NCBI RefSeq assembly: GCF_000261365.1 | Contig: NZ_AJVC01000003.1 | Location: forward strand, 1,054,001 to 1,118,000 | DNA: 64,000 nt | Direction: 5' to 3' | Source of the DNA: Herbaspirillum sp. GW103 | GTDB lineage: Bacteria > Pseudomonadota > Gammaproteobacteria > Burkholderiales > Burkholderiaceae_D | Shown: positions 11,201-54,208 of the stretch, piece after piece | How the letters are laid out: each line of letters opens with the position of its first letter | Position numbering within the stretch: position 1 is the first letter of the stretch | The notes under the pieces: model-generated | What the model saw: only the letters and a program-made list of their open reading frames with translations | Told to the model about the DNA's origin: nothing | Databases searched by the model: none | Translations under genes and position numbers: made by a program

Positions 11201-11419
11201 GCATCGGGGGACAAACTCAGCTTCAAGGAGTGGTTCGCCGACGATTCCAAGCGCTGGGACCGCATGGAGTTGAGCAACGGCAGATGGCTGGGTGCACCTG
11301 AGGTGGAGGCGCTTGTCTCTGCCATGGCCGCTTTTGCACCGCCACCAACCGGCCAGGCGACTTTGACACCCGGCTATCAGACGGCCTTGGCTACCGTCAT
11401 CGCTACAAGCTGGCACTGA
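5216..11419 (+). CDS. Giant RTX (hemolysin-type calcium-binding) protein with embedded C39-like cysteine peptidase domain
   Basis: A 2,067-residue protein starting just after AGGAGGGG. Residues 3-25 form one hydrophobic segment (signal or anchor). About residues 433-475 hold two EF-hand/dockerin-like loops (DVNRDGQVSSGE and DINEDGQLGSNE). From about 580 to 980 there are dense GGxGxDxLxG calcium-binding nonapeptides. Residues about 1115-1310 form a papain/C39-like domain with Cys1144 (TGTCALTS), His1249 (NHAVTLTG) and Asp1272 (TDSGRG). Further RTX blocks, an Ig-like segment (about 1450-1540) and RTX-associated C-terminal modules follow. RTX proteins are usually exported by type I secretion, but no ABC transporter or membrane-fusion partner is nearby. 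Whether the peptidase domain acts on the protein itself or on other targets is unknown. The N-terminal 400 residues match nothing I recognise. Confidence 0.85.
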   Translation: MVLIVFGLLAVLSIGFASVCYVVIDNPELIAPPPPVRTANSPPEYVIGDLGGMPVKIDHGIVQFIEYDGDPGWGERRRGPRPERTYSSRLSSFAFEVRYPDMKTRADKDAQADYEKYHPLSSSLGAELRWTNPWIGGGIRSGSRYPGHGAMDRLYQATTSHPETRVMGDQLVPIESEIPGLELFVDLGAHPTTGESWRYSSIGSGDTYFHRDSSGRPTTYINCNFRSGTRRYSLCQHEWSLESLDLNIWVSTLYPPGLLPHWQDIQIKVSQFILTFHHAQTTGPVSPPANTRRDWFSDAGYQTDTYRDASGSPVSSAIQLGKTSYDLYDPGQRAHAEYQLSSLHDDGRLNQRYWLDFSSLTTRWLLGAAGGLGFKPAGELGFKLPAGWSDPIGAFYDSQSASYDRSASIALATVRAMSATGQALSASQLAALDVNRDGQVSSGEAGALRLWADINEDGQLGSNELMSVTRNISRDDYGFLTRGSGRVVANAMSMAAPPAHTRSEPAYAGVPPSNDQELRKRMQVYPMFSGIFLWKAGEIMLGWNRNQYDYMIGTNGDDRFDVNYFAAAPAYLSRYTGRVRFFMAGAGNDVMGGSDRADTLWGGTGNDTLYGYAGADLLYGEEGDDTVLGHDGNDQLDGGAGNDLLLGGAGEDLVWGGEGADELQGNEGNDLLLGQAGNDRLYGQAGNDTLWGGDGADDLQGNEGGDALLGGAGNDRLFGQLGNDLLIGGDGDDVLVGFMASNEARQGLVAGESDDDVLQGGAGNDNLFGGPGDDQLSGESGRDLLLGDEGQDSLWGGSDDDELQGGAGNDQMDGGSGHDKLFGQAGNDRLWGGEGNDLLIGFTAGNDPKQTLLAGETDDDVLYGGAGSDVLIGGVGSDQLYGGDDRDELQGGAGDDMLMGEGGNDNLFGQAGNDTLYGGEGDDYLQGFTASNESQQRLMAGETDDDFLYGGAGTDILVGGVGSDYLDGGAGADTMVGGKGDDVYIVNSVNDTVYEQEGEGYDTVIASSNYLLNAHVEELRLLEGYRIHATGNALDNTLIGNSADNILDGVTGADLMRGGAGNDTYYVDNAGDVVSERAGEGRDMVQSSVSYRLGAQVEDLLLLDFSKPEKGSVDGRNVLVYGYPKRNELDYMQGDAVDNYTGTCALTSIANLLTQAGRPTTEAQVVRLAINNNWTVNNPALPAHQLGGTNVEEQRKLLSSYGLRNDVVTGYNEVGMANLLRSGRGVILAVNAGLLWGEEAYKGNGAVNHAVTLTGAVVGESDGALLGFYLTDSGRGRVSDMTRFVDIGSLRRAADLPNAYAIHTLEPVKYWQENIDATGNELDNNIVGNRGNNVLQGMAGDDVLSGAAGDDILTGGAGNDRLDGGSGDDTYRYQAGDGADVIQDADGNDTLLLGEGIAASSVRTTVQGGRLTLALAGGSVEMEAKAGKLVDRIQFADGTVWHARADGSGYVPTLAGPLTITGQLRQGQTVSLNTALSKPDGLGNISYRWERSANGLDWTVIAGATEALLLLGADLVGHRLRATMQSMMEDGKKESRVSAVSEKIGSASHEPVSAVPFSGELIPGEPLAVSNTAVDLHGVLGNQPQWSADALGSTLKLVQPPLGKLGIPWDNLGPLGRSIVSSSGNDYLAGTAGADRLVGLQGHDEYIVNHAGDVIVEGLFEGIDTVYASVSHTLSDNVESLTLTGTMAIDGSGNEGPNSINGNQGDNRLSGGGGNDTLHGGAGSDTLDGGPDNDWLDGGTGGDIYLFGRGSGEDTINEADRSAAARASMDVVTLGPGIAQDDLHVSRNRWDDLVLNVVGTSDKLMLSGWFSDAGSAIDQIRFCDGTAWDAGKLTERSAIATRHDDYLVGTGGADRLEGLAGDDTYVVNHAGDVIVEKRGEGVDKVMSSMSFILTSELEHLELTGTGDIDGRGNAGANRLLGNWGRNVLDGGAGDDYLAGGGGGDTYLFGPGSGTDIIDINDGDGADDDRIRIGAGVLEQQIWLRRVEEDLELSLFASGDKLSFKEWFADDSKRWDRMELSNGRWLGAPEVEALVSAMAAFAPPPTGQATLTPGYQTALATVIATSWH

Positions 11420-21988: not shown

Positions 21989-22006
21989 GTCTTTCCGTGC
22001 GTCTTG
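21958..22006. repeat. 12-bp inverted repeat across the lipoprotein stop codon
   Basis: CAAGACGCACGG (21958-21969) and its exact complement CCGTGCGTCTTG (21995-22006) are separated by 25 bases that include the stop codon. No T-run follows, so it is not a classical terminator. It may stabilise or terminate the convergent transcripts of the lipoprotein and recombinase genes. Confidence 0.6.
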
Positions 22007-22024: not shown

Positions 22025-23005
22025 CTATGGCAGGTCAGCCTCATCTGCTGTGCCCAATGTGGCGGGCTGCTCCGGCAGCAGGCGTTCCAGCATGGCGCGG
22101 TGGTAGGGGTCTTGCGATTCCACATAGCGTGCCGCCGAATGAATGTTTTTCCATCCCACGTACTCCATGAGGGCGCGCATCTCCCAGCCGTTGGCGCTGG
22201 CCCAGCTGGCAAAGCCGCGGCGCAGTGAGTGCGAGCTGTAGAGATGGGTATCGTCAATGCCGGCCGAACTCAGGATCCGCCGCAATAGCGGAATGATGCT
22301 CACCGCATGGATCGCCTCTTCGCTGATGCGGCCCCAGCGATCGATGCCGCGGATCACCGGCCCGCTGCTCAGGCCGCTGACTGCCAGCCAGTCCAGATAG
22401 GCCGCCACCGGACACAGCCGCGAGAGCGCCGGCGTCTTGTAGGTGCTGCCCTTGAGATTGCGGTCGGTCTTGGTGCGCGGCAGGTGGATGCGCATGCCTT
22501 CGCCTGCCACGGCCTCGATGCGGGCAATATCCAGGCGCGCCAGTTCGTCGCTGCGAAAGCCCCGCCAGAATCCGATCAGCAGCAGGGCCTTGTCCCGCGT
22601 ATGGCGCAGCAGATCGGTGAAACGAGACTGCTGGCGAGCCAGTTCGCGTTGCTGGTCGAGATAGGTCACGGTTTGTTCCAGGGCGGCCAGTTGCAAGGGC
22701 TTGGCCCGCTTTTCCTGCGTCGGGTGCAGCTCCTGGATGCCGCGCAGCATCTTGCGCACCACGGGCGCCTTGGTCGGATCGGGAAATCCCTGGTCTACAT
22801 GCCACTGCCCCAGCGCCGAGATCCTCTGCTTGAGGGTGTTGTGCGCCAGTTTTCCGGCGTGGTGGGCCAGATAACGCAAGAGACTGTCGGCCGTGGCCGG
22901 CAGGAAGCCTCCCCATTCGACTTCGAAGTGACGCACGGCGGCGCGATAGCTGCGGCGCGTGTTGTCACGGGTGGCAGCGTGCAGGTAGTCGTCGATATCG
23001 ATCAT
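22025..23005 (-). CDS. Tyrosine recombinase/integrase, copy 1 of the recombinase-KfrA module
   Basis: A 326-residue site-specific recombinase: N-terminal SAM-like core-binding domain (about residues 1-95) and a catalytic domain with all key residues: Arg in GFRSDE (about 151), Lys in TKTDRN, HSLRR (His259, Arg262), Trp in VGWKN in place of the second His, and Tyr in ARYVES (about 294). It should therefore be active. The frame begins earlier but MIDIDDYL matches the second copy. It is divergent from a KfrA-like gene; a close relative in the same arrangement lies at 53.2-54.2 kb. By eye roughly 85-90% of N-terminal residues are shared, while the DNA is clearly more diverged. Confidence 0.9.
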   Translation of the reverse strand: MIDIDDYLHAATRDNTRRSYRAAVRHFEVEWGGFLPATADSLLRYLAHHAGKLAHNTLKQRISALGQWHVDQGFPDPTKAPVVRKMLRGIQELHPTQEKRAKPLQLAALEQTVTYLDQQRELARQQSRFTDLLRHTRDKALLLIGFWRGFRSDELARLDIARIEAVAGEGMRIHLPRTKTDRNLKGSTYKTPALSRLCPVAAYLDWLAVSGLSSGPVIRGIDRWGRISEEAIHAVSIIPLLRRILSSAGIDDTHLYSSHSLRRGFASWASANGWEMRALMEYVGWKNIHSAARYVESQDPYHRAMLERLLPEQPATLGTADEADLP

Positions 23006-23054
23006 GACAAGGGCGCAATGAACGGGCATTACAGCCCGATGGGAGGATCTCGGG

Positions 23055-23100
23055 CGATTTTAGCCGATAAGATTGAATAATGATCCAATATTCAATCTTA
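23055..23100. promoter_or_regulatory. Recombinase upstream region with perfect 12-bp inverted repeat
   Basis: TAAGATTGAATA (23068-23079) and TATTCAATCTTA (23089-23100) form a perfect inverted repeat with a 9-base spacer. Next to it on the recombinase side is CGATTTTAGCC (23055-23065), whose complement GGCTAAAATCG recurs at the matching place before the second recombinase (53182-53192) and contains a plausible -10 (TAAAAT). The dyad may be a regulator site or a recombination core; it is not present in the second copy. Confidence 0.5.
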
Positions 23101-23139
23101 ATATTGAAAAGATAATCCAGGAAAAATCCTTGAATATAT

Positions 23140-23170
23140 TATGTAATTACGTATTATGTAATACATTATC
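23140..23170 (+). promoter_or_regulatory. Conserved 31-bp element before kfrA-like gene 1
   Basis: A 31-bp AT-rich element with core TACGTATTATGTAAT lies 18 bases before the KfrA-like start. The same element, with only two differences, lies 16 bases before the second KfrA-like gene on the opposite strand. It contains repeated TATGTAAT units and the small palindrome GTAATTAC. KfrA proteins repress their own promoters by binding such sites, so this is probably the autoregulatory operator. Confidence 0.65.
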
Positions 23171-23188
23171 AAATAACGGATTGAAACC

Positions 23189-24211
23189 ATGGCGCGCACC
23201 GGCCTCTACAAATCGGAAGTGAAGAAAGCCCGTGATGCCTTGCTGGCACTAGGCCGTCATCCATCGGTGGATGCGGTGCGGGTGGAACTGGGCAATACCG
23301 GTTCCAAGACGACCATCCACAAATATCTGAAAGAACTGGAAGAAGAAGAGGGCGGCCAGGACCGGCCGCGCAGCATTAGCGACACCTTGCAGGATCTGGT
23401 CGGTCGCCTGGCGGCCCAGTTGCAGGCCGAAGCCGCGATCCAGGTACAGACCGTGCGCGCCGACGCCGAGGCGGCAACGACGCGGATGCGCCAGGAGCTG
23501 GAGACGCTGCGTGCGGCCCATGCCGAGCAGGGGTTGCATCTGGGCCAGACGCAACAGGCCCTCATTGCCGAGCGCGCCGCGCATGACAAGACCCGTGAGG
23601 AGCGCCAGGAACAGGCTGCCGTTGTCCGCACGCTGGAGGTCCGTCTGGCCGCCTTGCAGGAACGTCTGGACGAGAACGAACAGCATCGCCAGTCGCTGGA
23701 AGAAAAGCACCAGCACGCACGCCAGGCCCTGGAGCACTACCGCAGTGCGGCCAGGGAGCAGCGCGAGCAGGATCAGCGGCGCCACGAACAACAACTCCAG
23801 AGCCTGCAGGCCGAGTTGCGCCAGTTGCGTCAGGAAGCGGTGATTCGCCAGGAGGATATCACCCGCCTGAACCAGGAAGGCGTGCGCCTGATCGCCGAGT
23901 TGTCGCACAGCCGCCAGGCGCTGGCTGAGCAGCTCACGCTGGCAACGCGTCGGGAGCAGCAGCTGGACTCGCTGCAACAGGTCGCCTCGGCCAAACTCGT
24001 GCTCGAGGCGCAACTGGCTGCCAGCAACGAGGCCTTCAAGCAGTTGCAATCCCGCGCAAGCAAGGCCGAGGAAGAGGCCGCCTGCATGCGTCAGCAATGG
24101 CAGCAAGGGGAGCGCGATCTGGCGGCGGCACGCGCGCGGCTGGAAACGCATGAAGCGTTGCAGCAGCAGTGGCGCAACCAGAGCGCCAGCGAGCCAGAGA
24201 TAGATCAGTGA
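23189..24211 (+). CDS. KfrA-like coiled-coil DNA-binding protein, copy 1
   Basis: A 340-residue protein. Residues 1-55 (MARTGLYKSEVKKARDALL, then GSKTTIHKYLKEL) match the KfrA N-terminal helix-turn-helix domain; the rest is almost all long alpha-helical coiled coil rich in Gln, Glu, Arg and Leu. Plasmid KfrA proteins bind their own operator and form filament-like coils linked to partition or nucleoid organisation. This copy is chromosomal-looking and divergent from a recombinase. A central block (ENEQHR, then LEEKHQHAR and EHYR) is kept in the second copy, while the C-terminus has diverged. It overlaps the convergent exporter gene by seven bases. Confidence 0.82.
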   Translation: MARTGLYKSEVKKARDALLALGRHPSVDAVRVELGNTGSKTTIHKYLKELEEEEGGQDRPRSISDTLQDLVGRLAAQLQAEAAIQVQTVRADAEAATTRMRQELETLRAAHAEQGLHLGQTQQALIAERAAHDKTREERQEQAAVVRTLEVRLAALQERLDENEQHRQSLEEKHQHARQALEHYRSAAREQREQDQRRHEQQLQSLQAELRQLRQEAVIRQEDITRLNQEGVRLIAELSHSRQALAEQLTLATRREQQLDSLQQVASAKLVLEAQLAASNEAFKQLQSRASKAEEEAACMRQQWQQGERDLAAARARLETHEALQQQWRNQSASEPEIDQ

Positions 24212-29429: not shown

Positions 29430-29511
29430 GGCCTGTTTGCTCATGCAGCGCTGAACGATCAATGCTGAGCCACGCGATCATGCGTATGCGGGTAATGCGT
29501 ATTTCGCTTCT

Positions 29512-29530
29512 CTGCGACAATATGTCGCAG
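29512..29530. promoter_or_regulatory. Palindrome upstream of copC, candidate operator
   Basis: CTGCGACAATATGTCGCAG is a perfect 8-bp inverted repeat around ATA, about 145 bases before the first copC. It is of the size bound by dimeric repressors. No regulator gene is adjacent that I can link to it; it might equally belong to an unseen promoter of the flanking region. Confidence 0.4.
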
Positions 29531-29675
29531 GCGCAGCGCTCTGGTCGTGGCAAACTTGTGGCCCGCGAAGATGTACGCGCTGACCCGGGTTCCCTCACTT
29601 TTCATGGCTCAAGTGGTCAGCCCGGCTCAGGGTTCGTGCACTTCCTCAACTGATGCCCTAGTGGAATTGACGATC

Positions 29676-30041
29676 ATGAAAAATATCAAACGCCTCCTGT
29701 CATTGGTAGTTCTGTCCAGCCTGTTCCTGGCGCCATCCGTCTGGGCGCATGCCCACCTGAAGACGACCATCCCCGCCGACAAGGCGGTAGTGACATCACC
29801 AGCAGAGCTGACCCTCAACTTCTCCGAAGGCTTGAATCTGAAGTTTAGCGGCCTCAAGCTCTCCGGTCCGGACCAGAAGGAAGTCCACCTGGGCCAAGTC
29901 ACGCTCATGGACGAAGGAAAGTCTCTCATGGTCGGGATTCCAGCACGGCTGACGCCGGGCACCTACACCGTGCAATGGCATGCCTTGTCCGTGGATGGAC
30001 ACAAAACCGAGGGTGCGTACAGCTTCTCCGTGACACCTTGA
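29676..30041 (+). CDS. copC: CopC-family periplasmic copper-binding protein (first copy)
   Basis: A 121-residue protein with a signal peptide ending ...SVWA and a mature start HAHLK, whose N-terminal His is the classic Cu(II) ligand of CopC. The rest is the CopC beta-sandwich (LTLNFSEGLNLKFSGLKL, TYTVQWHALSVDGHKTEGAYSFSV) including the second-shell Asp-His motif SVDGH. It lacks the Met-rich Cu(I) loop, so it is a Cu(II)-only type. The upstream open frame is not conserved in style; MKNIKRLL is the natural start. Its stop overlaps the likely start of copD. A second, more distant CopC is at 47.2 kb. Confidence 0.88.
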   Translation: MKNIKRLLSLVVLSSLFLAPSVWAHAHLKTTIPADKAVVTSPAELTLNFSEGLNLKFSGLKLSGPDQKEVHLGQVTLMDEGKSLMVGIPARLTPGTYTVQWHALSVDGHKTEGAYSFSVTP

Positions 30042-30922
30042 TTTCATCAACGCTTTTGTTGGGCCTGTGCCGCCTGTCTGTCGATGGTGCGGCACTGTTC
30101 CTGTGGGGAGCGAGCCTGACGCTGCTGGTGCTGGTGGCCGAGCCGCTCAGGAGCCATCTGTGGCAACGCCTGGCCGGATGGCGACGCTTTTTGTATGGAC
30201 TCCTGTTCATCGCCGTCCTTTCAAGTTTGCCGCTGCAAGCCAGTATTCTGGGGGACGGCTGGGCTGATGCCTGGCGCTTCGACACGCTCGCTGCGGTCGC
30301 CAATGGCACCTCGATCGGTACGGCATGGTGGTTCCAGTTATTAGCCGTTTCCCTGCTGTTGCTCAGCGTGACGCAAACGGATCGCATGCGCTTGCTGGCA
30401 TGTCTCGGGGGCAGCGGTATCGTACTCGCGAGTCTGGCGCTGACCGGACATGCCGTCATGAATGAGGGAGGGGAGGGACTGCTGCATCAGGCCAATGACC
30501 TTCTCCACGTTTGGAGCGTAGGGGCATGGATGGGGGCCCTGCCGATCGTCTTGCTGATCCTTTCAGGGCAATATCGCTGCGCGTATCCTGAGCTGGTCAG
30601 CGCGATTCTGCGGCGCTTTTCAAATGTCGGTCACGCAGTGGTTGCGTTGGTTTTGCTGACAGGCTTGGTCAATACGATCCTGATTCTTGGAAGGCTGCCG
30701 TTGGACTTCCATTTTCGCTATCAAGCGTTGCTGACCATCAAGATCATGGTGGCGGGCTTCATGGTGGCGATTGCTGTATTCAACAGGTATGTACTGGTGC
30801 CGGCGATGCGTCAACAGCGCAATGCGCTGCATCGGATACGCCTTCTGACCATGGCGGAAATCTTGCTGTCCTGTTTTGCGCTGGTGTTGCTGGCTTGGCT
30901 GGGAATGTTGCAACCGAATTGA
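30038..30922 (+). CDS. copD: CopD-family copper membrane protein (first copy)
   Basis: A polytopic membrane protein of about 294 residues with CopD features (LTGHAVMNEGGEGLLHQANDLLHVWSVGAWMGALPIVLLIL; LLTIKIMVAGFMVAIAVFNRYVLVP). CopD works with CopC in copper uptake across the inner membrane. The TTG start proposed here overlaps the copC stop (TTGA); the frame opens 21 codons earlier inside copC. No strong ribosome site is seen, so translation probably depends on coupling. Confidence 0.85.
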   Translation: MISSTLLLGLCRLSVDGAALFLWGASLTLLVLVAEPLRSHLWQRLAGWRRFLYGLLFIAVLSSLPLQASILGDGWADAWRFDTLAAVANGTSIGTAWWFQLLAVSLLLLSVTQTDRMRLLACLGGSGIVLASLALTGHAVMNEGGEGLLHQANDLLHVWSVGAWMGALPIVLLILSGQYRCAYPELVSAILRRFSNVGHAVVALVLLTGLVNTILILGRLPLDFHFRYQALLTIKIMVAGFMVAIAVFNRYVLVPAMRQQRNALHRIRLLTMAEILLSCFALVLLAWLGMLQPN

Positions 30923-31205
30923 AAACGCTGCCATGTGGGCGGTTCAAGACGAACTCCGGATCGACCTGTGCGCTGCGCTGATCCGCCGCTGCCGCGGCTG
31001 GCGTCGGTACCGCCGGCGCGGTATCCCGATCCATCGCGCTTTGCCAGATTCTCCCGCGTTGCGCCACTACGGAGCGCACAACGTCAATTTCCTGACTGCG
31101 GCAAATTGACGCAACCAGATCGATGCAGTGTCATCAGCTAGAAAAGCAGGCTTATCATAAGCGGCCCTCAACGTGACTTTGTCTGCTGTTTCCGGACCTC
31201 CGAAC

Positions 31206-31361
31206 ATGAGTTTGAGTAAACGCCTTCATCGACTGATCGCATGGCTTGCGCTATGCGTGATGCTCTTTGTCGCTGCCGCTCCAAGCATTTCGCGGGCGCT
31301 GGCCTCCAATAGCCAGATCAGCTGGATGGAGGTTTGCAGTGCCACCGGCAGCTCGTTATGA
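31206..31361 (+). pseudogene. Truncated DUF2946-type protein
   Basis: A 51-codon frame with a hydrophobic leader (RLIAWLALCVMLFVAAAPSISRALA) followed by SWMEVCSATGSSL and a stop. Full-length DUF2946 proteins continue past the (E/V)CSATG motif with a second conserved His/Cys-containing half, missing here. DUF2946 genes commonly sit beside CopC/CopD and copper-linked TonB receptors, as in this locus. It is probably a remnant, though a functional minimal form cannot be excluded. Confidence 0.6.
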
Positions 31362-31532
31362 GCAGAAATATCGACCGAAATAGCACATGAACAAGCTGAA
31401 GTCGTCTCACGCAGAGTTTGGCGCCTTGATGCGAGCTATTCCGACGCCGAATTCAAACTGGCGGTCAATTGCATTGATCAGCAAAGCCAAATGAATTTGG
31501 TCAGATCGAATTGCTCCAACGGAGAAGAAAAC

Positions 31533-32852
31533 ATGTTTAATGCAGTCGCAGTTGCAGTCCAGTCGCTGGCCGCCGGCGAGCATCTCACCATTCCCAAGCA
31601 TCGCGGCTTGCGTTTGCGTGCCAACGAAAGCATGTACAACTGGATCTATCGCTACAAGAATCCGGATGATGGCAGGATCCGTCAGGTCAAGCTGGGCGAG
31701 TGGCCCAACATGTCATTGACCCCGGCCGTTCGCCATTGGAGGCAGCTCAAGAGTCTGCGTGATCAGGGCGTCGATCCCTCAACAGTACATCGGCAAACGG
31801 AACACCCACGACGGGCTTCCATCGCCATGCCCAATGAATCCGCTGCGCAACTGTCGGTGCAGCAAATTGGCTTGCGTTATTACGAGGGGCACGTCAAGCA
31901 TCATTGGGGCGAGAGAGGGGCCAGGGAAGTATGGCGCATTTTCGCTCGCACGCTCGGTGAATTCGGTAGCCTACCCGCACAGAAGGTCGATGCAGACCTG
32001 GCTGCTGACTTTCTTCGCGGGTTCCTGGACCGGCCCACCCAAGGCACCATCACGCGACGCGAACTGGGCGCGGCATGGGACTACGCCATTACCCATGGAT
32101 TGCTTCCTGCGGAGAACGTCAATGTCTGGCGCGGTATCCTGCGTGGGGAGTTCAAGAGCAAGGGCGTTCGTGTCAAGGGCGTGCATCGTGGCGCCGAGAA
32201 ACGTCTGCTGTCGGTCGATGAGCTCGCCATCCTGCTGCCGTGGTTGCATCATTTCACCAGCGCCAATGAAGACATCCTGACGCTGTTTGCGTGGACATGT
32301 GCTCCTGGAAAGGAAATTTGCGCCATGTACGCCAGCGAGATCAGCCAGGAGGAGGACGGCTGGTGGTGGATCATCCCGGAGGCAAAGTTGCGTCCCCAAC
32401 GACGCGGTGCCGCGAGCGATTTTCGTATCCCCCTGGTGGGACGGGCTCTGGAGATCGTGCAGCGTCGGCTGCTGGCCAGCACGAATGGTTACCTGTTCAA
32501 AGGACGCAAGGGCGGACGCTTCGATCCCAAGAACGTCGGCGTGGCGGTCTGGAATGCGCGAGAGGACTGTGACTCACGTCCTGAATATCAGCGACCACGC
32601 CTGCCAATTTCGGACTGGACGCCCAACGATCTCCGACGGACAGCCGTGGAGTTGCTCAAAGCACTGGAATGTCCACCGGAAATCCTGGCCGCAATCCAGG
32701 GACAGCGCGGCAATCGTCTCCGCTTGTCTGCAGACAGGCATGCTCACGATGCCCTGAAGCGGCTCTGGATGACACGGCTGGCGCAAGTCTTGGAGCAACT
32801 CATGCAGGGCAGGGCGCCGGCGCAGTGGGATACAGAAAAGCTGGCTGCCTGA
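31533..32852 (+). CDS. Integrase-like protein with degenerate catalytic residues
   Basis: A 439-residue protein with the layout of P4-type integrases: N-terminal DUF4102 arm-binding domain (NWIYRYKNPDDGRIRQVKLGEWPNMSL), core-binding domain, then a catalytic-like domain. The first catalytic Arg position (normally TG-x-RPGE) reads TCAPGKE; the HxxR motif reads NDLRR with Asn for His; and the region of the nucleophilic Tyr reads LSADRHAHD with Ala where YxRH is usual. It is therefore probably not an active recombinase although the frame is intact. GGAGAAGAAAAC precedes the chosen ATG. It may be a DNA-binding relic or a repurposed regulator. A T-arm-like hairpin follows downstream. Confidence 0.7.
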   Translation: MFNAVAVAVQSLAAGEHLTIPKHRGLRLRANESMYNWIYRYKNPDDGRIRQVKLGEWPNMSLTPAVRHWRQLKSLRDQGVDPSTVHRQTEHPRRASIAMPNESAAQLSVQQIGLRYYEGHVKHHWGERGAREVWRIFARTLGEFGSLPAQKVDADLAADFLRGFLDRPTQGTITRRELGAAWDYAITHGLLPAENVNVWRGILRGEFKSKGVRVKGVHRGAEKRLLSVDELAILLPWLHHFTSANEDILTLFAWTCAPGKEICAMYASEISQEEDGWWWIIPEAKLRPQRRGAASDFRIPLVGRALEIVQRRLLASTNGYLFKGRKGGRFDPKNVGVAVWNAREDCDSRPEYQRPRLPISDWTPNDLRRTAVELLKALECPPEILAAIQGQRGNRLRLSADRHAHDALKRLWMTRLAQVLEQLMQGRAPAQWDTEKLAA

Positions 32853-33095: not shown

Positions 33096-34828
33096 TCAGA
33101 TATTGACTTTGAGCGTCAGGTAAAACGATCTCGGCTGTGTCGGAATGACGACCGGAAAGCCAAAATACTGATAGGACTCGTAGCTTCGTCGTCCCGTCAG
33201 GTTGTATCCGGAAAGCTGAAGGGTGTACCGACCAAAATCATAGGCTGCCTGGGCATCCACAGTCGCCATGCCTGGCACGGAGACGGTATTGGGCAAGGTC
33301 AGCTGACGGCGACCGAGTGCCGTGATACCGGCTCCGAACGACAATCCCTCAGCGGCGCCATCCAGTACGCGATAGCGGAAGGCCAGGCGTCCGCTATGCC
33401 TTGGCACGCGGGCCAGTGTGTCCCCAACCGGGATCGTGTTGTCTTGCGTGACCACCGCTTGGGTATAGGCGTAGTTCGCCAGCAAGGACAACGCTCGCAC
33501 CGGTTCCCAGGTCATGTCGGCCTCGAATCCGCGTGCGCGTTGCTGCCCCGTCTGAATCGACACGAGGGGATTGCTGGGATCCGCTGTAGCGACGTTGTCG
33601 CGGGTCTGTTCGAACACGGCCAGCGTGCCCGACAGTTTCCGCACTTTATCGTCAAGCTTGATACCAAGCTCGATGTTCCTGGAGGTCTCGGGCTTGGGTA
33701 CTGTTGAGCCGATGAAACCGAATGGTGCGCGGAAGGCATGGTGAGCGGGAAGATCGGATAGGTGGTCGGTGTAGAAGCATTGGGCGCTGCCAGTGCCGGA
33801 TAGATGAAGCTTCCGTATTGGCCAACGTCACTGGTGTAGAACTGTGCGGACGCCTCCAGGCGAACGCCGTCGTCAAACTTGTGGCGCAACTCGATCTTTC
33901 CGAGACGATTGTTGATATCCGTCATGGGCTGGCCATTGGGCGCACCTGGAAAGGCATTGCGATAAAGCTGACCCGCCAGCGCCTGTTGAGCCGGCAGCCC
34001 TGAGTACTCAAGCTGCTGGGTACGGTTGTACTGGCCAGAAAAAAGAATCTCGGTCTGCGCGTCGGGCTTGAACAGGATGCTGGGCTGGAAAAATACGCGT
34101 TTCCCGTGGACCTTGTCGATCCAGCTTGTATTGTCCTGGTATTCCCCTGCGAGACGTATTGCCAGCTTGTCGCTCAGTGTTACGTTGTAGTCGCCATAGG
34201 GGTTGGTGGTGGAGTAGCTGCCGGCTCGTACACCAAGAAAGCCGCCATTGCTGCCAATCTCGGGACGCGTCGACTCGATGTTGATGAGTCCGCCCAAGGG
34301 AGAGCCCAGGCCACCACCATACAGGGTCGAACTTGGTCCCTTCAGCACTTCGATGCGTTCGACGCCGACCAAGCCTGCTGGATTGAATGCTTGTTGATTT
34401 CCGCCGAAGATGGACAGGCCATCCAGATAGGTCTCAGCAGGAAACCCTCGAATGATGGGAGCGATCAGCAATGCTTCCTCCGGCTTGGTCGGCATCACCC
34501 CGGAAACGTTGACGAGTGCATCGGAGAGGCTGTGGACGTCCTGGTCATCAAGGAGGGATCGCTTCAATACAGAGACAGACTGCGGTGTCTGCAGCAACGG
34601 TGTATCCGTGCGCGTCGCCGAGCTGGACCGTGAAGCAGCGTAGCCCGGACTCTCCTCTGTAACGACAACCTCAGGAAGCTCCGAAGACACGGGCTGCTTG
34701 TCTGAAATGCTTTCAGCAGCAACCGCATTGGTGATGGGTGTCGAGGTGGCGTTGCTGGATTGCGCCATGACGGCTGTTACAAATGGATAGATCAATGCGA
34801 TGGCGGCTGCGATGGAAGTCTTTTTCAT
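33096..34828 (-). pseudogene. TonB-dependent siderophore-type receptor, broken by internal deletion and frameshift
   Basis: Two frames make one receptor. The first part (about 370 in-frame residues from 34828) has a signal peptide, a TonB-box-like start, the plug domain (TPQSVSVLKRSLLDDQ, GVERIEVLKGPSSTLYGGG) and the first barrel strands. After about position 33730 the frame is lost. The other frame resumes with FGFIGSTVPKPETSRNIELGIKLDDK, the strand found late in such barrels, and ends normally with a terminal aromatic-containing strand (SFYLTLKVNI). Compared with about 700 residues usual for the family, roughly 100-150 barrel residues are missing at the junction. It should be non-functional. 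The family normally imports ferric siderophores or copper-linked substrates with TonB-ExbBD. Confidence 0.8.
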
Positions 34829-34965: not shown

Positions 34966-35688
34966 CTACCGCGGGGACGGCGCCACGCTCAAGGTCAATT
35001 CATTGACTTGGTACGCCGCTGCACGAGCGCCAGTCACGAACAACGCATGCAGGTCGAAACCGAACTTGTTCAGGCGTGCCAGCGTGCTCTTGTTGCCTCG
35101 AACCAGCGCGTTATAGCCAAAGGTGGCGGGAATGGCTACCGCCAGTCCCAGCGCAGTCATGATCAGCGCCTCTCCAACGGGGCCGGCAACCTTGTCGATG
35201 CTTGACTGGCCGGTGGTACCGATGGAGACCAGTGCGTGATAGATACCCCAGACTGTTCCGAACAGACCGACGAACGGCGCTGTGGACCCTACGGATGCCA
35301 GAACGGCCATGCCTGCTTGCAGACGCGCAGCAGCTTCATCGATGGACTGTCGCAAGCCCAGGGTGACCCAGTCGCTGACAGCGAGCTGTTCATGCAAATA
35401 TCCACGATGCTGTTGATGATGAAACAGCGCAGTCCTGCCCGCACGGGCGAGCGCGGCAAATGGATTGTCATGCCCTAAAGTAGCCAGGGCGCCCTCCAGG
35501 TCGGCGACTATCCAAAAATCACGACGGGCGGCCTCCGCAGATTTACGCATGCGTAGCAGGTCAAGTGCCTTGGTCAGCATGACATGCCAGGAGGCGATGG
35601 ACATGCTTATCAGCAGGACGGCAACTGCGCGCGTGACGATGTCACCCTGCGCCCACAAACTCTGAAGGCCGTAAGGACTGACTTCCAT
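34966..35688 (-). CDS. exbB: ExbB/TolQ/MotA-type proton channel protein, orphan
   Basis: A 240-residue protein with three membrane segments and the ExbB core (LASVGSTAPFVGLFGTVWGIYHALVSIG; EALIMTALGLAVAIPATFGYN). ExbB with ExbD uses the proton gradient to energise TonB. No exbD or tonB gene is next to it: downstream is the broken receptor and upstream a Tn3-type transposon end about 130 bases away. The operon was probably truncated by the transposon insertion. Confidence 0.85.
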   Translation of the reverse strand: MEVSPYGLQSLWAQGDIVTRAVAVLLISMSIASWHVMLTKALDLLRMRKSAEAARRDFWIVADLEGALATLGHDNPFAALARAGRTALFHHQQHRGYLHEQLAVSDWVTLGLRQSIDEAAARLQAGMAVLASVGSTAPFVGLFGTVWGIYHALVSIGTTGQSSIDKVAGPVGEALIMTALGLAVAIPATFGYNALVRGNKSTLARLNKFGFDLHALFVTGARAAAYQVNELTLSVAPSPR

Positions 35689-35816
35689 GATGTTTTAAGT
35701 CTTCATGGGGCGAGGCACGTTGACTCGCCCTGGATGGGAGAAGGCTCGAATTATGCGCGCAGGACCCGATGTGATGCGTGCGACAAATTGTCACATTCTC
35801 TCTACAGGGGGGGCAG

Positions 35817-35862
35817 CCGAGATAAGGCTAATGTTCATACATAAGCCTAAAAGTAATAAACG
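35817..35862. repeat. Terminal inverted repeat of the Tn4651-like transposon (left end)
   Basis: A run of G followed by CAGCCGAGATAAGGCTAATG begins right where the leftward tnpC gene ends and the ExbB region begins. Tn4651/Tn4652-type transposons have GGGG-starting ends with a GCCGAGATAAGGCTAAT-like body (recalled). The matching right end was not found within the window by eye, so the element is either longer than visible or broken. Confidence 0.5.
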
Positions 35863-35882: not shown

Positions 35883-36233
35883 TCAATCTTTTGGTGCGAG
35901 TGCCTCAAGGGGCTCTATTGATCGCTGCCAACCACGCATAACCCCTACGATGCGTTGAACGCAGCTGATTGTGTCAAATACCATCTCTGGCAATGAGTCC
36001 TCCCCTGTCGGCACAGAGAGACCCGCGCCGTTTAAGACGGTGTGTGCCATCCCATGCAGGCGAAGTAATTCGTCGCGCAATCCATCTTCTGAGCGCAGCA
36101 AGTCTATGACCTGATCAAGTTCATCGACGATAGCTAATAAAGCCGAAGTGTCGAATTCCTGCTGAAGTTTTTTTAGAGCACTGTTATCTACCAAACCATA
36201 GGCCGTCTTTATGGTTTCGTGTCCTTTAGTCAT
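35883..36233 (-). CDS. tnpC: TnpC, post-transcriptional regulator of Tn3-family transposase
   Basis: A 116-residue mostly helical protein (ALLAIVDELDQVIDLLRSEDGLRDELLRLHGMAHTVLNGAGL) encoded directly after tnpA, the two overlapping by ATGA. Its position, length and helical pattern match TnpC of Tn4652-like transposons, which lowers TnpA levels after transcription. No membrane segment or DNA-binding motif is evident. Assignment rests on context as much as sequence. Confidence 0.75.
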   Translation of the reverse strand: MTKGHETIKTAYGLVDNSALKKLQQEFDTSALLAIVDELDQVIDLLRSEDGLRDELLRLHGMAHTVLNGAGLSVPTGEDSLPEMVFDTISCVQRIVGVMRGWQRSIEPLEALAPKD

Positions 36234-39200
36234 GCGCCTCCCTCTGCGCCTTTCGGTGCTTCCGCTCTTGCTCTCTTGGCAGCCTGTTTAAATAGTGCCT
36301 CCTTAAGCCAAGCCTCAGGCGGACGTTTCATATCAAGGAAATAATTTCCGAAGCGTTTGACGCCCGTGGTGCCATAGGGACTCATATATGTTGCATCTTC
36401 AACGGCAATTTGCTCACCTTCTGCATAAAGCTCCTGGATGATTCGCATCATATCCACCGTGTTCTGCAAAATGACAGAAGAAGCCACTAAGTCGATATAT
36501 CTCACTCTCTTTTGCTGCTCGTTCAAGTCGTTTTCGGTGATGACGTCACCGCCAAAATCGAGCCATTTGGTGAACGCATGGTAAGACTCGATTTTGTTGG
36601 TCGTAGCGGTCACCTCTTGACGCATCTCCTTTTGCGAGATCCACCGCAGCAGGTAGATGGTGCGCAGTACTCTACCCAGCTCCCTTGCGGCGGCAAAGAG
36701 TCGATTGTGGCGGCCGTCATGACTCAATTTTCGAAGGAGCATCGGAGACGCGACCTTCCCTTGCTGGATCGAGATCGCTACTTGCATGAGATCTTGCCAG
36801 TGGTTCTGGATTAGTTTCCAGTCAACGACATCGCTAAAAAGTCTATCGATGTGCTTGTACTTAGTGGCCTTGTCAGCTTTATAGAATTTTAGATCCTTCC
36901 AGTTACGAATTCGAGGCATTAGCTGGATGCCATTCAGATAGGTGAATGCAAATACGACCTCAGATTGCCCGTGCGTGTCCGAATAGACCGTGTCTGGCTG
37001 GACGCTCAGACCCGCTTTCATCAGACCTTCAATGACATATATCGCTTCCAGCATTCCCGGCGGGATAAAGCTGCGGAAATTCGCAATGTAGTTGTCCGCC
37101 ACATGACGATATGCCACCGCGCCCATCCGCTTGTATCGGAAGTGCATGCCGACAAGGAGATTTTGTTCGTAAAAATTGTGATGTGTGGCGTCAGCAGCCA
37201 CCTTCGTTCCATCGCCCCAGAGCTTCGGAAGTTCCAAGCGAAGGTACAGCTCCGCGAGGTCGCGACAAGCGTTGTCTAGTTGTTCCAGGCTCATGTGGCG
37301 CTGGTTGACATAGGAAAGCTGATGAGGGGTGACGCCATTGGACAGATGTCGAGCGGCCTGATGCGGTCCCAGGTTGCATCCCATTGCGAATACGGTCAGC
37401 AGGTAACGTTCGCGAGCATTGCGTAATTTGGGGTCGTCACCGGACTGCGGCCCGAAATTACGAGTGAACCCCGTCCAATGTTCAATGTTGGCGAGGATGT
37501 CGAGCAGATTGCGAGGCACGAGCCGGCTATCTATCGCAGCTTGCAGCGCAATGGCTGAGGCGGGAATCTCGCGGGCGGTGACGCGCCTCAAAGTCGGTTC
37601 CCCATTGGCGCCGATCGATACGTCGCCGGCGTGCTGAGGAAATTCGCTATCCACCTGCGCCGCCGTGTCCGCCAACATGCTTTTGAGGTTTTCGACGAAC
37701 GCTTGAGGATTGACAGCGATACCAATTCGGTCGCAATACTCTGGGAGTAGTGCCTCGCACTCCTTCCAAGAGAGAAGCTGGCCACGGTAATCGGCAAATG
37801 TACCAGCACCTTCGATACACACGTCGCCACTACGCAGATCACTGGCCAGATGGGAGAAGACGCAGACTTCTAGGTAACGACGATTAGTCGGGTTTCCAAG
37901 GCCGTGAGAACGTCGGACAAGTTTATGCCATCGTTCTGAAGCAAACGATAGATCTACCTCCTCGGCGATCCATTCTGCTTTCCGGTGTTCGTTCTCCATT
38001 ACGATATCCAAAGCTTTGAGAAGAGCCTTGTCCTGCGTGGCCGGATGAAAAACCAGTACCTTCGCCATCTGGAACATGGCAGCACGCCAAGATTTGAAAG
38101 GCTTCCAGAGCAATGGAAGATGATTTCCTCCACTCCAAACTCGGATTGCCTCACAATCGCCCTGCAGCCGTTCCAAGCTGCCATGTGGGGCCAAGAGGTC
38201 GCGAATACGTCTTCCTGTCGGAGCATCTTCCATACCTTCAGCGAGAATCTCCACAACCTGTTCTAAGGTTGCGACAAGCTCTTCACTGAGCTCCCGCTGC
38301 CGCGCCTGCAGAACCTGCAATTCTTCTCGCGCGCTTTTGTGAATAGCGCTGATGCGTCGAATGAACATCTCGGCAATGTCGTCCCGGGCACCGATCCGCA
38401 TGTGATGAATAAGAGCCAGAATGAGCGTTTGTCTTTTCGCTGGGTTGTAATCTTTCATTTCTGCCGCATCGAGGACGGCTGCACGATCGGAGAGATGCCG
38501 CAATTTGTTGGCCGGCACATCTTCCAACAGCGTTCCGGGATCGGGCAATGACTCTAGCCAATTTAGCTGGTCCAACACTAAATCGAGATGCTTGCGAGAA
38601 GCCTTCTTAGCAGAGCGCTTAATCTGGTGATAAAGGGATCGGCGCTGTGGTAGTTCCGTATCTAGAAGACTATCAAGCCACTGCCTTTGGGCAGAGGACA
38701 ATCGTTGGGATATCTTTTTGTAGAGCGCGGACTCCACTGCAGCGTGGGCTTTTTCGGCAATAGTGTCCAGGGTGCTAAACGCAGGAAGCTCGTAACCTGA
38801 CCGTACCAATTCCTCGACCGTGATATTGATGATGTCTACACGAGTATCAACGATGGCGGCCGCGCGTTGCGAGATCTCAACAGTAATCGGCCTGGTCTTC
38901 ACATGCTCATATGGCGTTACCCCGAGTAGCGTGCGGATTGCCTTGTGATGGCGATAAGGAGATATGTTTGAATCGGGGTATGAAATTGCATGAACGGGCT
39001 GCATACCAAGACTCGCAGAAATATGCTCCACGATTTCCGCGGGAATAGCATCAATGGCAGGAAAGTAGCGCAAAAACTGAAAGCATTTCAGATTCACCAG
39101 TAAGGCCAGGCGCCGCGGCGCGGAGCGGGCGAAACCGGCTACCCATTCTATTTCTTCAGGCCGCGGCGTGAAGGTTGCATGAAGGTCTTTAAGTGTCAGC

Positions 39201-39244
39201 GTACGTGGAAATCTAGGATACGCAGTCCGTTCGATACTGGCCAT
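36230..39244 (-). CDS. tnpA: Tn3-family transposase, Tn4651/Tn4652 type
   Basis: A transposase of about 1,004 residues: N-terminal DUF4158 DNA-binding region and C-terminal Tn3 DDE catalytic domain with Asp in WGDGTKVAADATHH, Asp in YSDTHGQSEVVFAF and Glu in TNKIESYHAFTKW. All three acidic residues are present, so the enzyme looks active. Length and a downstream tnpC place it in the Tn4651 subgroup. I chose the ATG at MASIERTAY; the frame begins ten codons earlier at a TTG without a ribosome site. The base composition is clearly lower in GC than the core genes to the left. No resolvase (tnpS/tnpT) is visible beside it. Confidence 0.92.
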   Translation of the reverse strand: MASIERTAYPRFPRTLTLKDLHATFTPRPEEIEWVAGFARSAPRRLALLVNLKCFQFLRYFPAIDAIPAEIVEHISASLGMQPVHAISYPDSNISPYRHHKAIRTLLGVTPYEHVKTRPITVEISQRAAAIVDTRVDIINITVEELVRSGYELPAFSTLDTIAEKAHAAVESALYKKISQRLSSAQRQWLDSLLDTELPQRRSLYHQIKRSAKKASRKHLDLVLDQLNWLESLPDPGTLLEDVPANKLRHLSDRAAVLDAAEMKDYNPAKRQTLILALIHHMRIGARDDIAEMFIRRISAIHKSAREELQVLQARQRELSEELVATLEQVVEILAEGMEDAPTGRRIRDLLAPHGSLERLQGDCEAIRVWSGGNHLPLLWKPFKSWRAAMFQMAKVLVFHPATQDKALLKALDIVMENEHRKAEWIAEEVDLSFASERWHKLVRRSHGLGNPTNRRYLEVCVFSHLASDLRSGDVCIEGAGTFADYRGQLLSWKECEALLPEYCDRIGIAVNPQAFVENLKSMLADTAAQVDSEFPQHAGDVSIGANGEPTLRRVTAREIPASAIALQAAIDSRLVPRNLLDILANIEHWTGFTRNFGPQSGDDPKLRNARERYLLTVFAMGCNLGPHQAARHLSNGVTPHQLSYVNQRHMSLEQLDNACRDLAELYLRLELPKLWGDGTKVAADATHHNFYEQNLLVGMHFRYKRMGAVAYRHVADNYIANFRSFIPPGMLEAIYVIEGLMKAGLSVQPDTVYSDTHGQSEVVFAFTYLNGIQLMPRIRNWKDLKFYKADKATKYKHIDRLFSDVVDWKLIQNHWQDLMQVAISIQQGKVASPMLLRKLSHDGRHNRLFAAARELGRVLRTIYLLRWISQKEMRQEVTATTNKIESYHAFTKWLDFGGDVITENDLNEQQKRVRYIDLVASSVILQNTVDMMRIIQELYAEGEQIAVEDATYMSPYGTTGVKRFGNYFLDMKRPPEAWLKEALFKQAAKRARAEAPKGAEGGA

Positions 39245-39502
39245 GGTAAGGGGATCCTTGGCAGGGTCGTTCAAAGGCGAAATCGTTGAAAAATCGGAGT
39301 GACATCAACAGGCTCCACGGACATTGCATCAGCCGAAGGTTCGTTGTCAATGGCAAGTTTTCACGCTCTCAGATATTCTTTGTAGGATGAGCAGACTCAA
39401 GTCGCGACATGAATATATTGTGACCACGAGATGCTATAAACTGTGGAATGAAATGACCCAAAACGTGATCGTCTCTGGTCAAAACTGCACAATCGAGCTT
39501 GC

Positions 39503-52027: not shown

Positions 52028-53059
52028 CTATTTTTTGCGCGGCGCGGGCTCGGTGTCTCGCAGATGAGCGCGCAACTCGGCACTGAGGCTTTCATGGGCA
52101 TCCAGCTTTGCTTGTAGTGCTGCTCGTTCGATCTCTGCTTTCTGTAACAGCTGGGTTGCCGTCGCATTTTCTTGCTCCACACGGGCCAGGCTGGCTTGCA
52201 GCTGCTCGGTGACAGCGTTCCTGTCAGCCAGCTGGGACTCCAGCATCTGATTTCGGTTGGCAACCTCTTGTAGCGTGTCCAGTTTTTGCTGGAGTCGCGC
52301 TACAAGGCTGCGCTGATCGTAGAGGGCTTGCTGTGAATGCGACAGCTCCGCGACTAGTCGGACGCCTTCTTGGTTAACGCGGGTCACTTCCTCTTGTTTG
52401 ACGATGGCCTCCTGCCTGAGCTGGCGCAACTCGGCCTGCAAAGTCTGAATCTGCTGCTCATGGCGCCGCAGATCCTGTTCCCTCTGTTCTTTGGTTGCAG
52501 TTCGGTAGTGCTCAAGGGCCTCCCGGGCGTGTTGGTGCTTCTCTTCCAGAGAATTGCGGTGCTGCTCGTTTTCCGCAAGGCGCTCGTGAAGGACCCGCAC
52601 TTGCACCTCAAGCGCGCGGCTTTCGACCGTCTGCTCCTGGAGCTGAGTACGAGTTTGCTCGTGAGCTTGAACCTCATGCAGTCGAGCGGCATCGGCCTTT
52701 GCCGATCGGGCGGACAAGTCAGTCACCGTCATACGCAAGGTCTCCAGTTCAGCCTGCAGGCGGCCTGTGGCTGAATCGGCCTCAGATCTGGCCGAGCGCA
52801 CCTGCGCGTCCGCTTCTGCTTGGAGCTGCGCTGCAAGCCGTTCCACGAGGTCCTGTAAGGCCTCGCTGATAGTGCGCGACGGCACCGCCGTTGCGCCTTC
52901 TTCCTCCTCCAGTTCCTTGAGATACTTGTGAATCGTGGTTTTGGATCCGGTATTGCCCAATTCGATGCGAACAGCATCCACGGAGGGGCGTCGACCCATG
53001 GCCAGCAGGGTGTCACGTGCCTTCTTGACCTCGGATTTGTACAAGCCTGTGCGCGCCAT
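52028..53059 (-). CDS. KfrA-like coiled-coil DNA-binding protein, copy 2
   Basis: A 343-residue protein with an N-terminal KfrA domain almost identical to copy 1 (MARTGLYKSEVKKARDTLL, then GSKTTIHKYLKELEEEEG) and a long coiled coil. The central blocks ENEQHRNSLEEKHQHAR, EHYR and LQAELRQLRQEA are retained. AAGGATCGCC precedes the ATG; the open frame upstream of it crosses the operator. It is divergent from recombinase copy 2 and mirrors the 23 kb locus. It ends about 40 bases past the copper ATPase stop, convergent with it. Confidence 0.83.
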   Translation of the reverse strand: MARTGLYKSEVKKARDTLLAMGRRPSVDAVRIELGNTGSKTTIHKYLKELEEEEGATAVPSRTISEALQDLVERLAAQLQAEADAQVRSARSEADSATGRLQAELETLRMTVTDLSARSAKADAARLHEVQAHEQTRTQLQEQTVESRALEVQVRVLHERLAENEQHRNSLEEKHQHAREALEHYRTATKEQREQDLRRHEQQIQTLQAELRQLRQEAIVKQEEVTRVNQEGVRLVAELSHSQQALYDQRSLVARLQQKLDTLQEVANRNQMLESQLADRNAVTEQLQASLARVEQENATATQLLQKAEIERAALQAKLDAHESLSAELRAHLRDTEPAPRKK

Positions 53060-53075
53060 GGCGATCCTTGTTTTT

Positions 53076-53106
53076 GATAATGGATTACATAATACGTATT
53101 TACATA
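53076..53106 (-). promoter_or_regulatory. Conserved 31-bp element before kfrA-like gene 2
   Basis: On the minus strand this 31-bp stretch has the same sequence as the element at 23140-23170 with two changes, core TACGTATTATGTAAT included. It ends 16 bases before the KfrA-like start. Sequence on both sides of it differs between the two loci, so it is selectively kept and is probably the KfrA-type operator. Confidence 0.65.
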
Positions 53107-53245
53107 CCAAATTAGAAGAGATTTTCGGAGATGAGCGCTTATATTCACAGATTAAATATTGACTCGTTATGTATCCTGATGGGCTAAAATCGACGTCATC
53201 CGACTCCATCCACCTGTAATGCCGCCTTTTTAAGATTCAAGCGCC

Positions 53246-54208
53246 ATGATCCAGATTGATGACTACTTGCGGGCCGCCACCCGGGACAACACCCGAAAAA
53301 GCTACCGCGCCGCAGTGAACCATTTCGAGGCTGAATGGGGCGGCTTCCTGCCGGCCACCGCCGATAGCATCGTGCGGTACCTGGCCGCCTATGCGGGCGT
53401 ATTGGCGCACAACACCCTGAAACAACGCATCTCTGCACTGGGTCAATGGCACGTCGACCAAGGTTTTCCGGACCCGACCAAGGCACCTGTGGTGCGCAAG
53501 ATGCTGCGCGGCATCCAGGAACTGCATCCCGCGCAAGAAAAGCGGGCCAAGCCGCTGCAGCTTGATGCGCTTGAGCAGACCTGCGCCTGGCTCGAACAGC
53601 AGCGCGAGCAGGCACGGCACCAGGGGCGCTTCGGCGATCTGCTCCGTCACACCCGCGATAAGGCGCTGCTGCTCATTGGATTTTGGCGCGGATTTCGCAG
53701 CGACGAGCTGGCCAGGCTGGAAATTGATCGCATCGAGGCCGTTGCCGGCGAAGGCATGACGATTTATTTGCCACGCACGAAGACCGACCGAAGCCTCAAA
53801 GGCACCACCTACAAAACGCCCGCGTTATCGAAGCTATGCCCGGTGGCAGCCTACCTAGACTGGTTGGCTATCAGCGGTCTGAAATCGGGCGGCGTTATCA
53901 GGGGCATTGACCGCTGGGGCACGATTAGCGAAGGTGCCGTCAACGCGGCCAGCATCATTCCGTTGTTTCGCCGGATCTTAAAGACCGCTGGGGTTACGGA
54001 CGTCCACCTTTATAGTTCGCACTCATTGCGCCGAGGCTTTGCCAGTTGGGCCAGCGCTAATGGATGGGAGATGCGGGCGCTGATGGAGTACGTGGGATGG
54101 AAAAACGTCAGTTCGGCTTCGCGATATGTAGATTCGCCGGATCCATATCACCGAGAAATGTTGGAGCGTCTCATTCCCAAGACGCCTCCTCTGCTGGAGC
54201 AATCCTGA
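53246..54208 (+). CDS. Tyrosine recombinase/integrase, copy 2 of the recombinase-KfrA module
   Basis: A 320-residue tyrosine recombinase. The catalytic set is complete: Arg151 (GFRSDELARL), Lys in TKTDRS, His259 and Arg262 (HSLRRGF), Trp in VGWKN, Tyr294 (SRYVDS). It aligns without gaps to copy 1 over most of its length, differing mainly by conservative changes. It faces away from the KfrA-like gene. GGCTAAAATCG, shared with copy 1, lies about 55 bases before the start. The arsenic operon begins about 390 bases downstream. Confidence 0.9.
   Translation: MIQIDDYLRAATRDNTRKSYRAAVNHFEAEWGGFLPATADSIVRYLAAYAGVLAHNTLKQRISALGQWHVDQGFPDPTKAPVVRKMLRGIQELHPAQEKRAKPLQLDALEQTCAWLEQQREQARHQGRFGDLLRHTRDKALLLIGFWRGFRSDELARLEIDRIEAVAGEGMTIYLPRTKTDRSLKGTTYKTPALSKLCPVAAYLDWLAISGLKSGGVIRGIDRWGTISEGAVNAASIIPLFRRILKTAGVTDVHLYSSHSLRRGFASWASANGWEMRALMEYVGWKNVSSASRYVDSPDPYHREMLERLIPKTPPLLEQS

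Follow-up and report, generated by a model that had tools for sequence, protein, structure and literature searches.

We analysed a 64,000-nucleotide stretch of the Herbaspirillum sp. GW103 genome (contig NZ_AJVC01000003.1, positions 1,054,001 to 1,118,000; hereafter the window, numbered from its first letter), which contains two mirror-image copies of a two-gene module, module A at 22025-24211 and module B at 52028-54208. Each module consists of a tyrosine recombinase gene, here called tnpS, that is divergent from a gene for a protein with a KfrA_N domain, here called tnpT. Phage_integrase and KfrA_N scores are from Pfam profile matches, and the percentages are identities to the transposon Tn4651 proteins.

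22025..23029, minus strand: tnpS of module A, tyrosine recombinase (Phage_integrase 46.9 bits; 58.4% to Tn4651 TnpS, 296 amino acids)
23189..24211, plus strand: tnpT of module A, KfrA_N DNA-binding domain and coiled coil (KfrA_N 92.2 bits; 41.1% to Tn4651 TnpT, 321 aligned positions)
52028..53059, minus strand: tnpT of module B (KfrA_N 96.9 bits; 44.6% to Tn4651 TnpT, 249 aligned positions)
53246..54208, plus strand: tnpS of module B (Phage_integrase 49.1 bits; 58.1% to Tn4651 TnpS, 296 amino acids)

An earlier note on this DNA had described two mirror-image modules, recombinases with all of their catalytic residues and KfrA proteins that keep the DNA-binding domain, and the open reading frames, Pfam matches and an alignment of TnpS proteins confirmed these points. 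Alignment with Tn4651 TnpS placed the likely start of module A tnpS at 23005; the reading frame of module B tnpT is open to 53209, and its start at 53059 (MARTGLYK) is conserved with module A. The recombinases of the two modules share 84% identity over 317 amino acids and the KfrA_N proteins 61% over 330. The catalytic residues that we assign to module A TnpS by motif, R159, K187, H267, R270, W293 (replacing the second histidine) and Y302, are invariant across an alignment of five TnpS proteins. A TnpS profile matched Cre structures with an E value of about 1e-15, and a comparison of TnpT with solved structures gave no match. At the search threshold, the host genome (5.05 Mb, six contigs) contains two such recombinase genes and two KfrA_N genes, all four within modules A and B, and the six best named relatives of the window recombinase are from Herbaspirillum.

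Likeness to the Tn4651 resolvase

The same divergent arrangement is found on pWW0, the plasmid that carries Tn4651, where a 'DNA-binding protein' gene (29463-30461, minus strand) faces away from a 'site-specific integrase' gene (30642-31613, plus strand). We take these to be TnpT and TnpS, respectively, names that come from papers and recall and are absent from the plasmid table. The best alignments to Tn4651 TnpT cover residues 1-305 of the module A protein and 1-238 of the module B protein. KfrA_N also matches the TnpT proteins of Tn4651 (93.0 bits), pCAR1 (98.9 bits) and pXap41 (99.6 bits), so a KfrA domain beside a chromosomal recombinase is not the unexpected partnership that the earlier note had seen in it. 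According to the accessible text of PMC7157771, TnpS and TnpT form a heteromeric resolvase whose site, rst, lies between the divergent genes, and TnpT is without apparent homology to other proteins; the corresponding part of PMC4619425 distinguishes the accessory site of rst, which belongs to TnpT, from its core site, which belongs to TnpS. We found no report of a connection between TnpT and KfrA in the accessible portions of the open-access literature, in which one paper naming both concerns a plasmid kfrA locus.

Both modules contain an rst-like region between the two genes, with the following features, none of which has a strand.

23030..23188: rst-like intergenic region of module A, with a conserved gap and a conserved tnpT-side block
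23139..23171: tnpT-side conserved block of rst in module A, candidate accessory site, near-identical in module B and similar in Tn4651
23068..23100: perfect palindrome in module A, 62 bp from the start of tnpS, two 12-bp arms and a 9-bp spacer, candidate core (crossover) site of TnpS
53060..53245: rst-like intergenic region of module B, a 186-bp gap with the tnpT-side block at 53075-53107
53148..53178: imperfect palindrome in module B, 8 of 11 pairs and a 9-bp spacer, 67 bp from tnpS, the positional counterpart of the module A core

The gap between aligned gene starts is 183 bp in module A, 186 bp in module B and 180 bp in Tn4651. Across 77 pairs drawn from 101 sources (the window, 4 plasmid loci, 13 relatives, 80 genome contigs and 3 duplicates), it ranged from 170 to 482 bp and lay between 170 and 214 bp in 64. 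The module A palindrome scored 12, against a mean of 3.5 and a maximum of 7 in 20 shuffles, and the best palindrome beat its own shuffle mean in 63 of the 77 intergenic regions. When 70 pairs were averaged by position, the core signal peaked 57 bp from tnpS (4.8 of 12 pairs versus 3.2); this peak came from the 36 Pseudomonas pairs (6.4) and was not seen in the 34 non-Pseudomonas pairs. We regard the assignment of the tnpT-side block as firm, that of the core in module A as good and that of the core in module B as weak. The 9-bp spacers of the two palindromes differ at three of nine bases, so recombination of module A with module B at present, which would be an inversion between mirror-image rst sites, looks unlikely.

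Together, these data indicate that each module is very probably a cassette for cointegrate resolution, made up of TnpS, TnpT and rst and belonging to the Tn4651 branch of Tn3-family transposons. The system that the earlier note ranked as its best candidate for something undescribed is thereby settled, by homology, as the known resolvase of Tn4651-type elements. Transposition in the Tn3 family proceeds by TnpA copying the transposon into a target, which gives a cointegrate that contains the transposon twice in direct orientation. TnpA of the window would likewise copy its transposon into a target and leave such a cointegrate. TnpS, a Cre-like tyrosine recombinase, would then recombine the two rst sites with the crossover at the core near tnpS, and TnpT, a coiled-coil protein with a KfrA_N domain, would bind the tnpT-side part of rst and assist the reaction. 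We infer this recombination, its placement at the assigned core and the present-day activity of the modules.

A copper and arsenic transposon and an orphan cassette

The window holds real, well-preserved TnpS/TnpT pairs, one in a Tn4651-type copper/arsenic transposon and one an orphan. Module B sits in the transposon, together with tnpC, tnpA, 38-bp inverted repeats and copper and arsenic passengers. The tnpA and tnpC genes lie between modules A and B (35.9-39.3 kb) and were missed in the earlier note.

35883..36233, minus strand: tnpC, post-transcriptional regulator of the transposase (NF041282 134.9 bits, cut-off 100; 42% to Tn4651 TnpC)
36230..39274, minus strand: tnpA, Tn3-family transposase of the Tn4651 branch (NF033527 745 bits, cut-off 500; 54.5% to Tn4651 TnpA, 994 aligned positions)
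35808..35845, plus strand: left inverted repeat (IRL), 38 bp, 34/38 to each right-end repeat and preceded by TACAG
66034-66071 and 99973-100010, inverted relative to IRL: right-end repeats (window coordinates, outside the window), 34/38 each

The window TnpA has 24.8% identity to the other TnpA of pWW0, presumably the Tn4653 transposase. After the right-end repeats, the next-best match to IRL across 164 kb reached only 22/38, and the flanking target duplication reads TACAG/TACAG for an element spanning 35808-100010 and TACAG/TACAA for one spanning 35808-66071. The end repeat of Tn4651 itself, used as a probe, gave its best match at 35808 (26/38, versus 24 in a shuffled control), which is not convincing alone; the end at 35808 is convincing because it pairs with the repeats ending at 66071 and 100010. 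A 3.0-kb stretch that ends in the right repeat occurs twice in direct orientation (63056-66075 and 96995-100014), and the duplicated right-end region extends in the host contig (G000:C3) to about 1154010. Most simply, this is either a 64-kb transposon that contains an extra, internal copy of its right end or a 30-kb transposon in which a duplication took place later. Nested elements are indicated by two more Tn3 transposases, which lie at about 71 and 89 kb in window coordinates. Module B and its neighbours recur in Herbaspirillum robiniae with 80-96% DNA identity (locus L033).

As the earlier note had observed, module B adjoins a copper and arsenic block. The copper genes encode a heavy-metal sensor kinase, CopA, CopD, a copper P-type ATPase and a CusB-type adaptor, and the arsenic genes an ArsC-type reductase and ArsB. 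Metal and arsenic passengers are described for such transposons in the accessible part of PMC4619425. Module B thus stands among resistance genes because these are passengers of its transposon. The earlier suggestion that the pair has to do with the mobility of resistance islands fits module B; the pair itself would resolve cointegrates, and TnpA would do the moving. Within the transposon, an IS3-family transposase gene (40275-41108) lies upstream of tnpA. To the left of its left end are a TonB-dependent receptor gene (33096-34828, seemingly two overlapping open reading frames) and an exbB-type gene (34966-35688).

Module A is an orphan pair beside a sulfide block, has no detectable transposon ends and occupies a site that is also occupied in some related genomes. 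The block, which the earlier note had correctly placed next to the module, encodes TauE/SafE, SQR-type and persulfide dioxygenase-type proteins. Comparisons with other genomes identified several breaks at the module edges. The flanks at 21989 and 24205 lie only 29-36 bp apart in G018, a genome of the same genus, so module A (about 2.2 kb) is missing there as a unit; G018 may have lost the module or may never have had it. About 110 bp of tnpS is left beside the left flank in G024. The left gene and module A are present in G044, and the sulfide block beside them is absent. A persulfide dioxygenase-type gene lies between the module and the left gene in G010 and G011, with a second copy in G010. 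From the absent ends and these comparisons, we conclude that module A is an old cassette, now an orphan, and that its edges are sites of rearrangement.

Near module A and the sulfide genes, the segment 15649-19799 encodes DabA (PF10070, 849.6 bits) preceded by an NDH-L-like protein, an arrangement of the DabAB-type inorganic carbon transporter. Further left, 5216-11419 encodes a 2,067-amino-acid protein with many RTX calcium-binding repeats (13 PF00353 stretches). A tRNA scan of the window found none, and a scan of six other loci made one call, a tRNA-Ser in L099.

Pairing and co-evolution across genomes

The generality of the pairing was surveyed in the best 80 of at least 547 TnpS matches confirmed in genome contigs, with at most 6 kb examined on each side and distances measured between stop-to-stop frames. 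A divergent KfrA_N-type gene lay within 300 bp of tnpS at 57 of the 80 loci and at 321-2640 bp at another six; no such partner was found in the DNA examined at the remaining 17, three of which cover at most 1.1 kb upstream. Tn3 tnpA was present at 17 of the 80 loci, and 13 of these were among the 17 without tnpT, as expected where transposon passengers separate tnpS from tnpT (PMC4619425, accessible text). Among the loci from relatives, 10 of 13 had the partner. We also compared trees of the two proteins for 69 of the 77 pairs (eight were dropped as duplicate or partial), and found that patristic distances of TnpS and TnpT were strongly correlated (Mantel r = 0.934), a value reached by none of 999 permutations. 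These results support the earlier proposal that the pair travels as a fixed unit, and the pairing also held in the comparison of trees that the note had put forward, although the trees are not identical. They indicate co-evolution of the two proteins, with halves sometimes exchanged. Consistent with such exchange, the TnpS of L010 and L034 is near that of module B (86.6%) and the TnpT is only 52% identical to that of module B; a swap of halves at rst is possible. Separately, tnpS is interrupted in L108 and L139 (Herbaspirillum aquaticum and G041) by DNA like the host's third Tn3-family element.

Several observations weigh against the assignment of the modules as Tn4651-type resolution cassettes. 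The tnpC gene adjoins the end repeat here, whereas the repeat is upstream of tnpA in Tn4651. The palindrome score of module B is not above its shuffles, and the core there is therefore placed by its position and its likeness to module A. A clean empty site for the module B transposon was not found in 33 other genomes of the genus: long matches to the left flank (the exbB-type gene) reached only 70-75%, and the best seven right-flank matches among those listed start 33-69 bases in. Module A lacks what a complete transposon has, since no IRL-like site above 22/38 was found from 10 to 35.7 kb, its edges showed one 7-bp inverted match and nothing longer and no direct repeat of at least 7 bp, and it has no tnpA of its own. 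In the survey, tnpA was not found within at most 6 kb on each side at 63 of the 80 loci; this is a weak counterpoint, because tnpA of pWW0 itself is about 50 kb from tnpS. Finally, just 28 of 66 splits are common to the TnpS and TnpT trees, and well-supported splits include 15 conflicting pairs, touching 10 of the 32 such TnpS splits.

The Pseudomonas locus, rival explanations and known systems

The unexpected part of the analysis is that relatives of the pair occupy one fixed chromosomal site in many Pseudomonas species, with no transposase gene beside them. Of the survey loci, 39 are from Pseudomonas (among L064-L110). Their left flank is common to 38 and their right flank to 37, the others (one and two, respectively) being cut by the contig, and tnpA was not found at any of them in up to 6 kb on each side (five were shorter). 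In L064 the gene order is gor, tnpT, tnpS, ahpC and ahpF, followed by gloA and an mvaT-type gene. The motifs RGFRSDEL, HSLRRGF, GW and RY are unchanged in all 35 usable Pseudomonas tnpS genes, and the median ratio of nonsynonymous to synonymous substitution (dN/dS) is 0.06 for tnpS and 0.11 for tnpT (139 and 140 usable pairs, respectively, out of 150 sampled for each); both genes are under purifying selection. A consensus of 36 intergenic sequences contains two conserved motifs that are near-palindromic by eye. The individual palindromes of L064, L070 and L099 are not above shuffles, and only the average position peaks.

A TnpS homologue was found in 257 of 298 Pseudomonas genomes, the weakest matches being distant recombinases. 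The gor context was checked in the 39 loci, and the distance from tnpS to dif was measured in two sets of 30 genomes. The first 30 genomes were picked for a tnpS near the middle of a large contig and the second 30 were others with tnpS on contig C1. An exact dif pattern matched none of three genomes; with up to three mismatches, dif was found in 30 of 30 and 29 of 30. The distance was 61-420 kb in all of the first 30 and 73-334 kb in 27 of the second, two others having the two sites on different contigs and one having no dif match; for G249, which has two dif-like matches, the same-contig one was used. Thus tnpS lies 61-420 kb from dif and points to it in all 57 genomes with both on one contig.

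The fixed locus, the selection on it and its nearness to dif suggest domestication. We consider it a tentative but serious possibility that TnpS/TnpT/rst became a vertically inherited terminus-region locus of Pseudomonas (gor-tnpT-rst-tnpS-ahpCF) with a chromosomal job, either in sister-chromosome recombination or in control of the neighbouring peroxide genes, and that orphans such as module A are steps towards it. As a rival account of the orphan pairs, above all those at gor-ahpC and perhaps module A, the idea that they have left transposition to serve the chromosome, for instance by sister-chromosome recombination in the terminus region, is less likely than not. The shared flanks, invariant motifs, low dN/dS, two conserved intergenic motifs and the distance of tnpS from dif and its orientation towards it speak for this idea. 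However, a single insertion at gor in an ancestor would leave the pair at the same site in all descendants, so the distance from dif adds no independent support; dif is already served by XerC and XerD; the palindromes do not stand out one by one; and the genomes that lack module A (G018) or keep only about 110 bp of its tnpS (G024) speak against a chromosomal role for that module. Pairs without tnpA or near islands are also already in print: as far as the accessible portions go, a table in PMC3056050 has tnpS and tnpT in four Pseudomonas putida strains and Tn4652 tnpA in only one, PMC4465626 describes a two-gene S and T cluster in Azotobacter chroococcum, and PMC5006985 places such proteins in a Pseudomonas chlororaphis island. 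The same portions make no mention of the fixed gor-ahpCF locus or of selection on it, and we found no report of a fixed chromosomal TnpS/TnpT locus in the accessible open-access literature. The question raised is why a transposon resolvase should be kept by many species, together with its site, at a single position within the terminus region.

It is improbable that the two genes form a unit of their own, unconnected with Tn3 elements, that mobilises or maintains resistance islands, with the recombinase responsible for integration and excision of the island and the KfrA-like protein for its stability. The 2.2-kb absence in G018, the breaks of homology at the module edges in G010, G011 and G044, and the 63 survey loci at which tnpA was not found would fit such a unit. 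Against it, the edges of module A show no direct or inverted repeat apart from the single 7-bp match, module B lies inside a Tn3-type element bounded by inverted repeats, both proteins have homologues in the Tn4651 resolvase, and the conserved site is inside the module rather than at an island border. That a recombinase and a plasmid-like KfrA gene came to be adjacent twice by accident is hardly credible and was refuted by the survey, where the 17 loci without a KfrA_N gene, 13 of them with tnpA as passenger-bearing transposons would have, stand against the close partners at 57 loci, the narrow gap and the correlation of the two trees.

Compared with known systems, the TnpS/TnpT cassettes of the window are most like that of Tn4651, with both proteins homologous, divergent genes, a similar gap and tnpT-side block, and tnpA and tnpC of the same branch; they differ in sequence (58% identity for TnpS and 41-45% for TnpT) and in that module A is without a transposon. 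The TnXax1-type and TnXocp1-type transposons of Xanthomonas have the same core genes, and TnXocp1-like elements likewise carry metal and arsenic passengers (PMC4619425, accessible text), but the window TnpA, so much closer to that of Tn4651, has only 34.8% identity to the TnpA of pXap41 (TnXax1 family), and tnpC is present in the window. Plasmid KfrA proteins share the KfrA_N domain followed by a coiled-coil-like stretch. Unlike a plasmid stability gene, the window gene lies on a 1.94-Mb chromosomal contig, divergent from its recombinase partner, and given this location and its pairing with tnpS, it is better described as TnpT.

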